Assembly: GCA_030614505.1 (NCBI GenBank)
Contig: JAUWTX010000002.1
Span: forward strand, 1 to 33,902
Direction of reading: 5' to 3'
Length of the DNA: 33,902 nucleotides
Source of the DNA: Desulfuromonadales bacterium
Lineage (GTDB): Bacteria > Desulfobacterota > Desulfuromonadia > Desulfuromonadales > BM103
Below are positions 1,418 to 33,902 of the stretch, in pieces. Below the pieces are notes generated by a model. That model was given only the letters and a program-made list of their open reading frames with translations. It was not told the origin of the DNA and did no database searches. Within the stretch, counting starts at the first letter, position 1, and the number at the start of each line of letters is the position of its first letter. The translations under genes and the position numbers were made by a program.

Positions 1418-1554
1418 ATGGTTTATTTGAAGGCCTCGATCAGGTCAGTCATTGCAGTGATACTATTAACTCGTTTCATCCTGTTGATCTGCGTGGAAAA
1501 GGTTGGATCCTCAATAAAGTACAGGACATTTTTAACTTTGTAGATAATCTGCTT

Positions 1555-2421
1555 TTAGCCGCAAAAGAGCTCGCGGTAACGAGTTAATAAATCCCTTAAG
1601 TAACGATGTAACATGGCTGACGTCTCCGCTTCTGTTGGCTCCTTTGCGCGATGGGTCCTCAGCCGTTCAAAGAGCAGCGGATCAGCTATTGCACCGCGCC
1701 CGAGCATCAGCCCGGCGGCGCCAGTTTCTCTGAGGATACGCCGCCCCTCGGCGGCAGTGCGGATATCGCCATTGGTGATTACCGGCAGGTGTGTTTCACG
1801 AACGACACGCTCGGTGATATTGTGGTCGGCGGTTCCGGAGTATTTTTGCGTAACTGTGCGTGGATGCAGGACCAGGAAGTCGACTTCGGCATTCTCAAAG
1901 AGCGGCAGGAGAGAAAAAATTTGCTCAGGATCATCGTAGCCTGCTCGCAACTTGATGGAGAAGGTTCCGGTGGTGGCAGCACGCAGGGCAGGAATGAGCT
2001 CTGTCAGCAGCTCAGGGTGTCGCAGCATGGCACCGCCGGTTGCAGCGGTGGTCATGCGCCCGTAAGGACAGCCCATGTTGAGGTTAATATGGCTGGCACC
2101 GACAGCTTCAGCATTGCGAACAGCTGCCACCAGGGCTTTGCCGTTGTTGCCGACCAACTGTACTACCATTGGAACATTACCGCGCGTGCTGGAGATCTCT
2201 TTCAAATCACTGCGCTTCAAGCATTTGCGACTAACATTACTGACCCGCATGAACTCGGTGAATACAACATCTGGGTGTACCCAGTCGATAAAGAGGGCGC
2301 GCATGGCGCGATTGGTAAGCCCCTGCATCGGAGCCAGCATTAGTGGTTTCTCTCCCTCTTTCCATGGTAGTGAGTACAGATTGTTATCTGTAGTAGCAAT
2401 TACGGGTCGATCAGAATGCAT
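1555..2421 (-). CDS. tRNA-dihydrouridine synthase family protein (possibly truncated by an in-frame TAA; coherent frame continues to 1423)
   Basis: LMLAPMQGLTNRAMR, NLNMGCPYGRMTTAATGGAML, IKLRAGYDD, LHPRTVTQKYSG, ITNGDI, GLMLGRGAIADP motifs of the Dus family. Confidence 0.85.
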   Translation of the reverse strand: MHSDRPVIATTDNNLYSLPWKEGEKPLMLAPMQGLTNRAMRALFIDWVHPDVVFTEFMRVSNVSRKCLKRSDLKEISSTRGNVPMVVQLVGNNGKALVAAVRNAEAVGASHINLNMGCPYGRMTTAATGGAMLRHPELLTELIPALRAATTGTFSIKLRAGYDDPEQIFSLLPLFENAEVDFLVLHPRTVTQKYSGTADHNITERVVRETHLPVITNGDIRTAAEGRRILRETGAAGLMLGRGAIADPLLFERLRTHRAKEPTEAETSAMLHRYLRDLLTRYRELFCG

Positions 2422-29341: not shown

Positions 29342-30364
29342 TTATTCTCCTTCAGACGAAGTTCCTGCAGGGTTAAGGCCGTAATTATCGAGAACTTTCG
29401 CTTCGATCTCCGCTGCCGCTTCAGGGTGTTCGGCCAGGTATTTCTTGGCGTTCTCACGACCCTGACCGATGCGATCTTCACCATAAGAAAACCAAGAACC
29501 ACTTTTCTCGACAATGTTGCATTCAACACCGAGATCGAGCAAATCCCCCTCACGTGAAATGCCGGTGCCGTACATGATGTCGAATTCTGCTTCCTTGAAA
29601 GGCGGAGCAATTTTGTTCTTGACAATTTTTACCCGAGTGCGGTTGCCGATCGCATCCTGTCCCTGTTTGAGAGAGGCAATCCGACGGATGTCCATGCGCA
29701 CGGTAGAGTAGAATTTCAAGGCGTTGCCGCCAGTTGTGGTTTCAGGGTTGCCGAACATGACGCCGATCTTCATGCGGATCTGGTTGATGAAAATTACGCA
29801 GCAGTTTGATTTACTGATGGTCCCTGTCAGTTTACGTAGAGCCTGAGACATCAGCCGTGCCTGAAGACCCATGTGCGAGTCGCCCATTTCGCCTTCGATT
29901 TCTGCGCGCGGGACGAGGGCGGCAACCGAGTCGATGATCAAGACATCAATGGCGCCGCTGCGCACGAGAACTTCGACAATTTCAAGGGCCTGTTCACCAG
30001 TGTCTGGTTGTGATATCAGCAGCTCATCAATGTTGACACCGAGTTTCCTGGCGTAATGGATATCAAGGGCATGCTCGGCATCAACAAAAGCAGCAACACC
30101 GCCTGTTTTTTGAGCCTCTGCGGCAATGTGCAATGCCAGGGTCGTTTTGCCTGAAGACTCAGGTCCATAGATCTCAATGACTCGTCCGCGTGGGACACCG
30201 CCTATGCCGAGAGCAATATCCAGACTTAAGGCTCCGGTTGGAATCGACCCGATGTCCGGCAGGACAGCTCCTTCGCCGAGACGCATGATGCTGCCTTTGC
30301 CGAACTGTTTTTCAATCTGGCCCATGGCCAGTTCAATAGCTCTGTTGCGATCACTCTCTGCCAT
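29342..30364 (-). CDS. recA: Recombinase RecA
   Basis: [55 protein letters not shown]. Confidence 0.98.
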
Positions 30365-30417: not shown

Positions 30418-30993
30418 CTACACTTTGTTGGCTTCATCATCAAAATTTACCGTTAGTAGCGGAATATGTTCTGCCCCGTCAGGGTGCAGACGGCTTTCAA
30501 AAAGAACTAACCTGTCAACGGGTAGCTGGCCAATCGGTGTTTGGCCGACAGAGTTGAATAAATTAGTCAAGTCAGCTTTTCGCTGTCGCAGTCGTCCGAT
30601 GGTCAAGTGCGGGGAATAAGGCCGTGACTCAGTAGCAATTCCCTCTCGACGCAGGCATTTGCGGCAATCTCTGTGAAGTCTCTTGAGCTGGTCTTTGGGC
30701 TCCAGATCAAGCCAGAGGATACGAGGTCGGTGCAGATTGGGGAATGCTCCAAGTCCTTTGACCTCGACCATGAAAGGCCGTTGATGTCGCTTAACGGATA
30801 GCACAGAAACCCTGATCTTTTCAAGGTCTTCCTGTTTGGTCTCACCGAAGAAATGCAAGGTCAGATGCAGGTTTTCAGAACGGATCCAGCGAACGCCCGT
30901 TATCTGTGCCTGAATGTGACTCTGGATTGCACTGATGGCCTCCTTCAGTTGCTGAGGTAATGGGATGGCTAAAAAAGTCCTAATCGAGGACAT
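30418..30993 (-). CDS. thpR: RNA 2',3'-cyclic phosphodiesterase (2H family)
   Basis: Two HxTx motifs (LHLTLHFFGE, HLTIGRLR); start chosen at MSSIRTFLAIPLP. Confidence 0.9.
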   Translation of the reverse strand: MSSIRTFLAIPLPQQLKEAISAIQSHIQAQITGVRWIRSENLHLTLHFFGETKQEDLEKIRVSVLSVKRHQRPFMVEVKGLGAFPNLHRPRILWLDLEPKDQLKRLHRDCRKCLRREGIATESRPYSPHLTIGRLRQRKADLTNLFNSVGQTPIGQLPVDRLVLFESRLHPDGAEHIPLLTVNFDDEANKV

Positions 30994-32938
30994 ATCGACC
31001 CTCATCAGGATCGACCAGAGGCAGAAGCGCTGAGAAACAGCTTCCTTGATCGGGGCCGGCACTTTCGACCCAGATCAGGCCTGCATGGGTCTCAATAATG
31101 CCCTTGGCCAAGGTCAAACCGAGCCCGATTCCTTTGCCTCCAAATCGGGCTTGAGATGTTGAATGCCCGGAAATGTCTCCCACTTCCTGGAATTTGTCGA
31201 AAATTCGAATCTGGTCTTCCTGCTCGAGCCCTATACCGCTGTCGCTGATTGATATTTCCAGATAACTTTCTACCAAAACGCTATCAAAAAAACTTTCAGA
31301 AAACGCCTTTAGATTTTTAGCAAGCCCCGAGACTTCTTTCTGTTGGAGAACTCTCCCGGTGATACGAACCCAGCCACCTTCAGGAGTGAACTTTATGGCG
31401 TTTTCCAGCAGTCGGCCGAAGGCCCGTTGTAAATGATGGACATCGCCCCGTATTATGGTGTCGTCGGGAAATCCCTGCAATTAAATGCGCAGCTTGCGTG
31501 TTTCACAGTTCGGCCTGAATTCAGCAAGCAGTTCATTGATCATTGGCCAGGGGTTGAAAGCTTCATGAGCCATGTAGAGAGCTTTTGCTTCAAGCTTGGC
31601 TGCTTCCAAAAGGTCGTCAACGATGTGATTGAGTCGCCTACTGCCACGTATGATGACATCCAGGGCCCGTTTTTCGTTTTCACCAAGAATCTGTCCTGCT
31701 TCACTCTGGAGAAACTCCGCTCCGGAAAGGATGGTTGTCAGAGGTGTGCGCAGTTCATGCGAGGCCAATGACAGAAAGGCACTTTTCATCTGGTTGAGAC
31801 TCTGCAGGGTGCGATGATGATGTTCGAGTTGTTCCAGATTGTCACGCAGGGTCGACCGGGAGCGCTCAAGTTCGCGCAGGCTGGCAAAATTGAGCCGGTG
31901 TTGCCATTGCAACTCATCAAAGAGCTCGGCGTTTTTCAGCAAAGGGCCGAGCTGTCTGCCAATTGCCTGTATGAGTCGCACATCCTCGCGGTTGAAGATC
32001 CGCTTGCCACGGTCGAAAATGAAGAGGACGCCCAGAGTTTCTTCCTCGGCGATAAATGGAACGGCCAAAAAAGCGTGCCAGTTGTCCGCAGCAACCGCAC
32101 TGGAAATTCGACGATGATCTTTCTGTAGATTGGTGGAAAGACGCGGTCGACCGGTCTCCGCTACTTTGCCGGCTAACCCCATTCCAGGCTGTATCCGACC
32201 TAGTTCTTCAACCACATTGTCGGGAATGTTGCGATGGAGAGCCAGTGTCATCTCTGTTCCTCGCTGTTCCAGCAGGAATATTCCTCCTCCCGATATGGCA
32301 AGGCTCCTGATGACTTCATCCAGGATAATCTCAAGCGTGTGCGGCAGGTCATGCCCTTCGGCAACACGATGGGAGATTTCGTTGAGTAGTGTGAGGTGCC
32401 GGTTATGGCGCTGCAGTTCGAGTTGCAGGTTGGTCGTCTGTGTAACATCACGAAAACTGCCGTAGATAATCTGGCGATTTTTCATGTGCCCGGTTCGGAC
32501 CTTGATTTTGCCAAGGAACTGGCTGCCGTCTTTGCGCCGAAACTTGATTCCGCTGATTTCGGCCTCGCCCTGCTTGACGACTGTGCTGATCATGCGTAAC
32601 AGGAGTTGACGATGCTCACGGGAGAAGAGCACCTTGAAGGTCAGATGGACACCTTCCCCCAGGGTATAGCCCAGCAGGTCCTCCGCCTGACGGTTGATTT
32701 CCAGCAGTGAGCCGTCTTCCTGGTCAAAGACAAACAAGGCCTCACCGGCGTTCTGGATAAGTTGTCGGTCGCGACTGCGGTAATTTTCGAGTAACTCTGC
32801 CTGTTGCCGACTGGTCTCTTTGCTGGTCAGCAGTTTGTCCCTCAACTCCCTTGCCTGGCTCTGGTTTCGTCTGGCCCAGATGATGGCCAGGATTACACTG
32901 ATAAATGCTATGGCTAGGACAGCTGTGGTCATGATCAA
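30980..32938 (-). pseudogene. PAS-GAF sensor histidine kinase interrupted by one in-frame TAA (31481-31483)
   Basis: Upstream part: TM, PAS, GAF, H-box SLASHELRTPLTT, ending ETRKLRI*. Downstream part in the same frame: LQGFPDDTIIRGDVHHLQRAFGRLLENAIKFTPEGG...DSGIGL...GKGIGLGL. Could also be two separate proteins. Confidence 0.75.
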
Positions 32939-33902
32939 CTCTCCCGCCCATCGTCTGAAAGTCGGGATGTGCCGGACAGCCTGGATATAACCAGGCGGCG
33001 AAGCCAGTCGATGGCTGTGCAGGCAGTGCGCAACCTGACCTGGTCGCGGTTGCCGGAGAAGTTGAATCGCTCAACGCGCTCTCCCCAGGGGCTGCTCATG
33101 GCCAGATAGACAGTGCCGACCGGCTTGTCGTCTGTACCGCCGTCGGGGCCGGCGATGCCGGTAACAGCAAGGCTGATGTCGGTGCGAGCTGTTGCGCGTA
33201 CGCCTTTGGCCATTGCCTCAGCACACTCAGCGCTGACGGCGCCATGGTGATCAATAACCTTTTGGGGGACTTTCAGGCAATTCAGCTTGGCGGAGTTGGC
33301 ATATGAGACGACACTGCGTTCCAGGAAAGCCGATGACCCCGGTTGGTCGGTGAGCAGTTTGGCGATCAGGCCGCCGGTGCATGATTCGGCAAGAGACAAG
33401 GTGTTCCCGGAAATTGACAGAAAACGTGCTGTGTTGCCGGCCAGAGTGTCACTGTCGATACCGACAACATAGTCGCCCAGAGTCTTACGTACGGCCAATT
33501 CGGCCTGATCGACCAGCTTTTGGGCTTTTTCTCCCTTGGCATGTAGTTTGACCTGCACCATTGGGAACTCAATATTGAATGCCAATTCAACTGCTTCCGG
33601 CAAGCCGTTGCGGTTGATGCGTGTCTCAACTTCTGGTTCCGGCAGGCCGAAGATGGTCACGACCCGTCGGCATTGCACGGGAAGGTTTGGGAAACGGTTC
33701 AACAGCGAGGGGACGACATACTCCTCAAGCATGGCCAGCATTTCGTGGGGGACGCCGGGCAGAAAGAAAAGATCGCTCTGCTTGCTCTGCAGATGAAAGC
33801 CTGGCGCTGTGCCGTTCTTGTTGGTAATGACGTTGCTGCGGCTTGGAATGAGTGCCTGTTTCTCGTTGCGCGGGTGCATTTCCCTTCTCCATGCGCGAAA
33901 AC
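32935..33902 (-). CDS. cinA: CinA family competence/damage-inducible protein (truncated at window edge)
   Basis: Frame open to the edge (FRAWRREMHPRNEKQALIPSRSNVITNKNGTAPGF), FFLPGVPHEM, C-terminal SLAESCTGGLIAKLLTDQPGSS...AVTGIAGPDGGT...GTVYLA. Confidence 0.95.
   Translation of the reverse strand, partial: FRAWRREMHPRNEKQALIPSRSNVITNKNGTAPGFHLQSKQSDLFFLPGVPHEMLAMLEEYVVPSLLNRFPNLPVQCRRVVTIFGLPEPEVETRINRNGLPEAVELAFNIEFPMVQVKLHAKGEKAQKLVDQAELAVRKTLGDYVVGIDSDTLAGNTARFLSISGNTLSLAESCTGGLIAKLLTDQPGSSAFLERSVVSYANSAKLNCLKVPQKVIDHHGAVSAECAEAMAKGVRATARTDISLAVTGIAGPDGGTDDKPVGTVYLAMSSPWGERVERFNFSGNRDQVRLRTACTAIDWLRRLVISRLSGTSRLSDDGRES

Follow-up and report, generated by a model that had tools for sequence, protein, structure and literature searches.

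In Rhodobacter sphaeroides, CheA3 and CheA4 constitute a split histidine kinase, in which CheA4 phosphorylates CheA3 in trans; the two are distinct, characterised proteins, and each carries its own targeting domains (PMC3591291). The locus described here holds a single histidine kinase frame that is interrupted by one stop codon. The stretch of 33,902 nt in which it lies (the window) makes up the whole of contig C240, from a MAG of 2.15 Mb, in 292 contigs and 88% complete, whose nearest named relatives are Desulfuromonadales/Geobacteraceae MAGs. The features of the locus are listed below, with Pfam domains as they were found in the read-through frame.

32935..33900, minus strand: cinA, cut by the contig end, upstream of the kinase
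31484..32938, minus strand: kinase frame before the stop, 485 codons (N-terminal helix, PAS, GAF and HisKA/DHp)
about 32504-32770, minus strand: PAS domain, codons 57-145 (Pfam)
about 31943-32353, minus strand: GAF domain, codons 196-332 (Pfam)
about 31586-31789, minus strand: HisKA/DHp domain, codons 384-451 (Pfam)
31481-31483, minus strand: in-frame TAA that interrupts the kinase frame prematurely, at codon 486, in the context CGC ATT TAA TTG CAG
30980..31480, minus strand: kinase frame after the stop (HATPase_c and the natural stop)
about 31016-31447, minus strand: HATPase_c domain, codons 498-641 (Pfam)
30980-30982, minus strand: natural TAG stop of the kinase frame
30418..30993, minus strand: thpR (RNA 2',3'-cyclic phosphodiesterase), with an ATG that overlaps the kinase frame at its end
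29342..30364, minus strand: recA, downstream of thpR

An earlier note on this DNA had described a single in-frame TAA in an otherwise intact PAS-GAF histidine kinase, and this description was borne out: one 652-codon frame (minus strand, 32938..30983; first ATG at codon 3, 32930-32932) encodes four Pfam domains and is interrupted once, at codon 486. HisKA with its phospho-acceptor histidine (HELRTP) and HATPase_c, both above the Pfam cut-off, are present in the one read-through frame, and it is this frame, not the annotated open reading frames, that qualifies as a HisKA-type sensor histidine kinase. The 166-aa downstream piece alone scored 70.4 bits for HATPase_c, compared to 65.5 bits in the whole protein. 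The proposed placement of the stop between the DHp and ATPase domains holds by the Pfam borders (HisKA to codon 451, HATPase_c from 498), but not by alignment with T. maritima HK853 (2c2a/5uht), in which the stop falls inside the segment VNVLFES. We take this segment to be the first strand of the ATPase (CA) fold, and the stop therefore lies just inside the CA domain, rather than in a neutral linker. An AlphaFold model of the intact kinase of a relative (11-row alignment) was too poor to use, with a mean pLDDT of 54 and values below 50 around the site.

The position of the stop bears on whether the kinase is genuinely split, the ATPase half starting at the TTG directly after the stop (31478..31480, minus strand) and phosphorylating the DHp half in trans. 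In favour of such an arrangement, the break is near a domain border, and CheA3/CheA4 provide a precedent (PMC3591291). However, the fragment would lack the start of the CA fold in the HK853 alignment; judged from sequence, a protein restarted at this TTG would be without the first helix and part of the first CA strand. No Shine-Dalgarno sequence was found before the TTG. It is a normal leucine codon, and the nearest relative, whose gene is intact, has TTG here as well. Among 40 relatives searched, 25 carry the kinase at E <= 1e-60, and 24 of these orthologues are readable at the stop column; none of the 24 is split there. Neither a pair of proteins conserved in relatives nor start signals of its own for a second protein were found. 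With no orthologue encoding two proteins at this point, the split gene entertained in the earlier note is extremely improbable.

In all 24 readable orthologues, which range from congeners to members of other families in the order, the stop column holds a sense codon, and the stop is unique to the window genome among the orthologues compared. The residue is Glu in most of the genus, and differs in more distant relatives. Orthologues of 74-84% identity align across the stop position without gaps, which puts the continuity of the frame far beyond chance and agrees with the claim that both flanks share a frame. The codon of the nearest relative, at 84% identity, is GAA, and a GAA to TAA change, given earlier as an example, matches it. 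The intact kinase of a Desulfuromonadales MAG (L029, JAMONP010000052.1) shares the cinA/thpR locus, the domains and 84% identity over 651 residues with the window kinase; it is a continuous open frame with GAA, whereas the window kinase has TAA at that codon. Elsewhere in the family, an A-run that is one base shorter frameshifts the kinase of one relative (G010, L038) at codons about 331-337, and the kinase of another (G018) has a stop at its extreme C-terminus.

We read the gene as a sensor kinase of the ordinary PAS-GAF-HisKA-HATPase type, made as a single protein and inserted between cinA and thpR in one Desulfuromonadales clade. In seven relatives (L052, L053, L054, L056, L057, L060 and L061) the kinase is absent, and cinA, thpR and recA are directly adjacent; the kinase is therefore dispensable, and its distribution is one of clade-specific presence or loss within a conserved cassette. 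In the nearest relative (G007, L062 4300-4569), only a remnant of thpR lies between the intact kinase and recA. Dispensability speaks for a genuine nonsense mutation that arose very recently in the sampled strain. The product would then be a PAS-GAF-DHp protein of 485 residues that lacks the ATPase domain. A single nucleotide change would turn the nearest relative's GAA into TAA, and a MAG can derive from a population that truly carries nonsense alleles. A kinase truncated in this way could not autophosphorylate; it might serve as a constitutive phosphatase, keeping its response regulator off, and the untranslated last 500 nt could also lower the overlapping thpR.

Selection was found to be the same on the two sides of the stop. 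The dN/dS ratio against the nearest relative is 0.128 before the stop and 0.129 after it, and the amino-acid branch of the window genome on a fixed tree is 0.074 before and 0.072 after, with longer values for the sister genome (0.118 and 0.128, respectively). Eleven relatives share 84 invariant columns after the stop, and the window kinase keeps all of them. Thus, relaxed selection after the stop was not seen in dN/dS, branch length or invariant columns. The equal ratios and the retained columns speak against an established pseudogene, although a very young one is possible. Given the absence of decay, the stop must be extremely young, false, or bypassed; by a rough calculation, the neutral time allowed since its appearance is at most about 2-6% of the branch, within which a real nonsense mutation would have to fall.

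Other genes of the MAG were found to be interrupted in the same manner. The window genes at 10.4-33.9 kb, and parts below, showed no other lesion at first comparison, and it was a later homology scan that brought up another premature TAA, in the gene of a tRNA-dihydrouridine synthase (Dus). In total 652 kb, or 30% of the MAG with the window counted in, was surveyed by a combination of coding potential and judgement that may have missed stops. Besides the kinase, this yielded seven genes with one isolated premature stop and intact orthologues, with genes as well conserved as clpB, prmA and dus among them. A hexamer score alone ranked the kinase stop low; thresholds were therefore loosened and orthologues added. 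The seven genes are as follows.

Window, 1555-1557, minus strand: premature TAA in the Dus gene; nearest relative GAA
C80 (L079 943): SH3 protein; relatives TAT/TAC
C22 (L090 11246): REC-GAF kinase; relatives mostly AAA
C122 (L088 10493): carboxypeptidase-regulatory-domain lipoprotein; relatives TAC/TAT
C3 (L125 4786): clpB; relatives TAT
C217 (L160 4206): second histidine kinase; relatives GAG/GAA
C213 (L159 6861): prmA; relatives mostly GAA/GAG, nearest relative GAC

The Dus frame (1423-2421, minus strand) ends naturally at a TAA (1423-1425), and the premature TAA lies 44 codons earlier, inside the Pfam domain match. Together with the kinase stop, the eight premature stops comprise six TAA and two TAG codons, and replace residues inferred to have been Glu, Tyr or Lys. 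Several candidates were left out of this count. A TAG in an HATPase_c match on contig C8 proved to be the natural end of that gene. An in-frame TGA in msrA (contig C172, L152 3373; L173) was set aside, as relative G009 has a TGA in the same place; this codon occupies the catalytic-cysteine position (GCFWG), and the gene probably encodes, to judge from its sequence, a selenocysteine MsrA. On contig C17 (L131, sites 5839 and 418), a TAA in a radical-SAM protein was uncounted owing to the clustering of changes, with three adjacent changed codons, the TAA among them, at a cysteine motif (TYCYYL in a relative, TSG*YL here), as was a possible premature TAA in a lipoprotein, where the relative differs at the site.

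The presence of other isolated stops of the same type shifts the balance toward sequence error. When each change is taken as a single step from the commonest codon of the relatives, all eight changes that produced premature stops are transversions. From codon usage and the fourfold-site transition/transversion ratio of this lineage (about 4.3), 53% of nonsense mutations are expected to be transitions. The probability of observing no transition among eight is 0.002 under the lineage spectrum, and 0.16 if errors fall evenly over the bases, an argument that concerns eight events and was framed after seeing them. In 429 kb of the nearest relative, the same scan, read by eye, gave no recognised premature stop, compared to 5.3 expected at the same rate; in-frame stops reported there were dismissed by eye, their frames appearing antisense or non-coding. 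Against error, substitutions elsewhere in the window show no clear excess of amino-acid-changing transversions, though errors at the rate implied, about 1 per 2.4 kb, would be too few to be noticed there. A G:C to T:A mutator was rejected, given the TAT codons in the clpB relatives and in the two nearest SH3 relatives, the AAA in most relatives of the REC-GAF kinase, and a synonymous spectrum of the window without a clear shift in that direction.

These isolated stops, the restriction to transversions, and the excess over the nearest relative are explained better by errors scattered through the consensus than by pseudogenisation, by recoding, or by a split kinase. We consider it likely, though well short of certain, that the TAA at 31481-31483 is a one-base consensus error of the fragmented MAG, one of several scattered substitution errors, in which the wrong base is inferred. 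A very recent nonsense mutation is a lesser but serious possibility: it would require the same recency of the seven additional isolated stops, every one of them a transversion and some located in strongly conserved genes. Error and very recent nonsense are thus what remains of the four options raised in the earlier note, the split kinase and readthrough having gained no support. If the consensus is in error, the organism would encode one intact kinase, which would autophosphorylate the HisKA histidine through its own ATPase domain.

A further reading holds that readthrough or ochre suppression bypasses the stop, here and in other genes of the genome, so that the kinase is produced at full length. 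The continuation of conservation past the stop and the predominance of TAA (six of eight) speak for this reading. Nevertheless, TAA terminates 10 of the 28 window gene models, and since two of these ends are the premature kinase and Dus codons, at least eight models, including recA, end ordinarily at TAA. The remaining two premature stops are TAG, and no single reassignment fits the replaced residues, which include Glu, Lys and Tyr; one consistent meaning was found neither in the genome nor among the orthologues. No TAA-reading tRNA was found among the tRNAs examined in the incomplete MAG. In addition, the kinase stop is followed directly by a T, which makes for a strong termination context. 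Readthrough, another proposal of the earlier note, is accordingly without positive support, and we regard such a bypass as highly unlikely. The broader case, that the TAA is real and tolerated, by readthrough or by halves that reconstitute in trans, with several such bypassed stops in the genome, is only slightly less improbable.

The stop itself carries little biological weight; were it real, we would regard it as a young loss-of-function allele of the usual kind, in a kinase that is dispensable. As this MAG holds scattered isolated nonsense codons, calls of a 'pseudogene' or 'split gene' from the MAG alone are untrustworthy. Three signs taken together provide a simple draft-genome check for such calls: selection that stays the same past the stop, changes confined to transversions, and more such stops than the nearest relative has.

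With a real stop and translation of the second half, the locus would resemble CheA3/CheA4, in that the phospho-acceptor and ATPase parts would reside on separate polypeptides. Unlike that system, the window offers one nonsense codon in one MAG, with no split orthologue and no second start signal. In its single nonsense codon, in a frame that is otherwise intact and uninterrupted at this point in every relative readable there, the locus is like bacterial pseudogenes and the spurious gene breaks of draft genomes.
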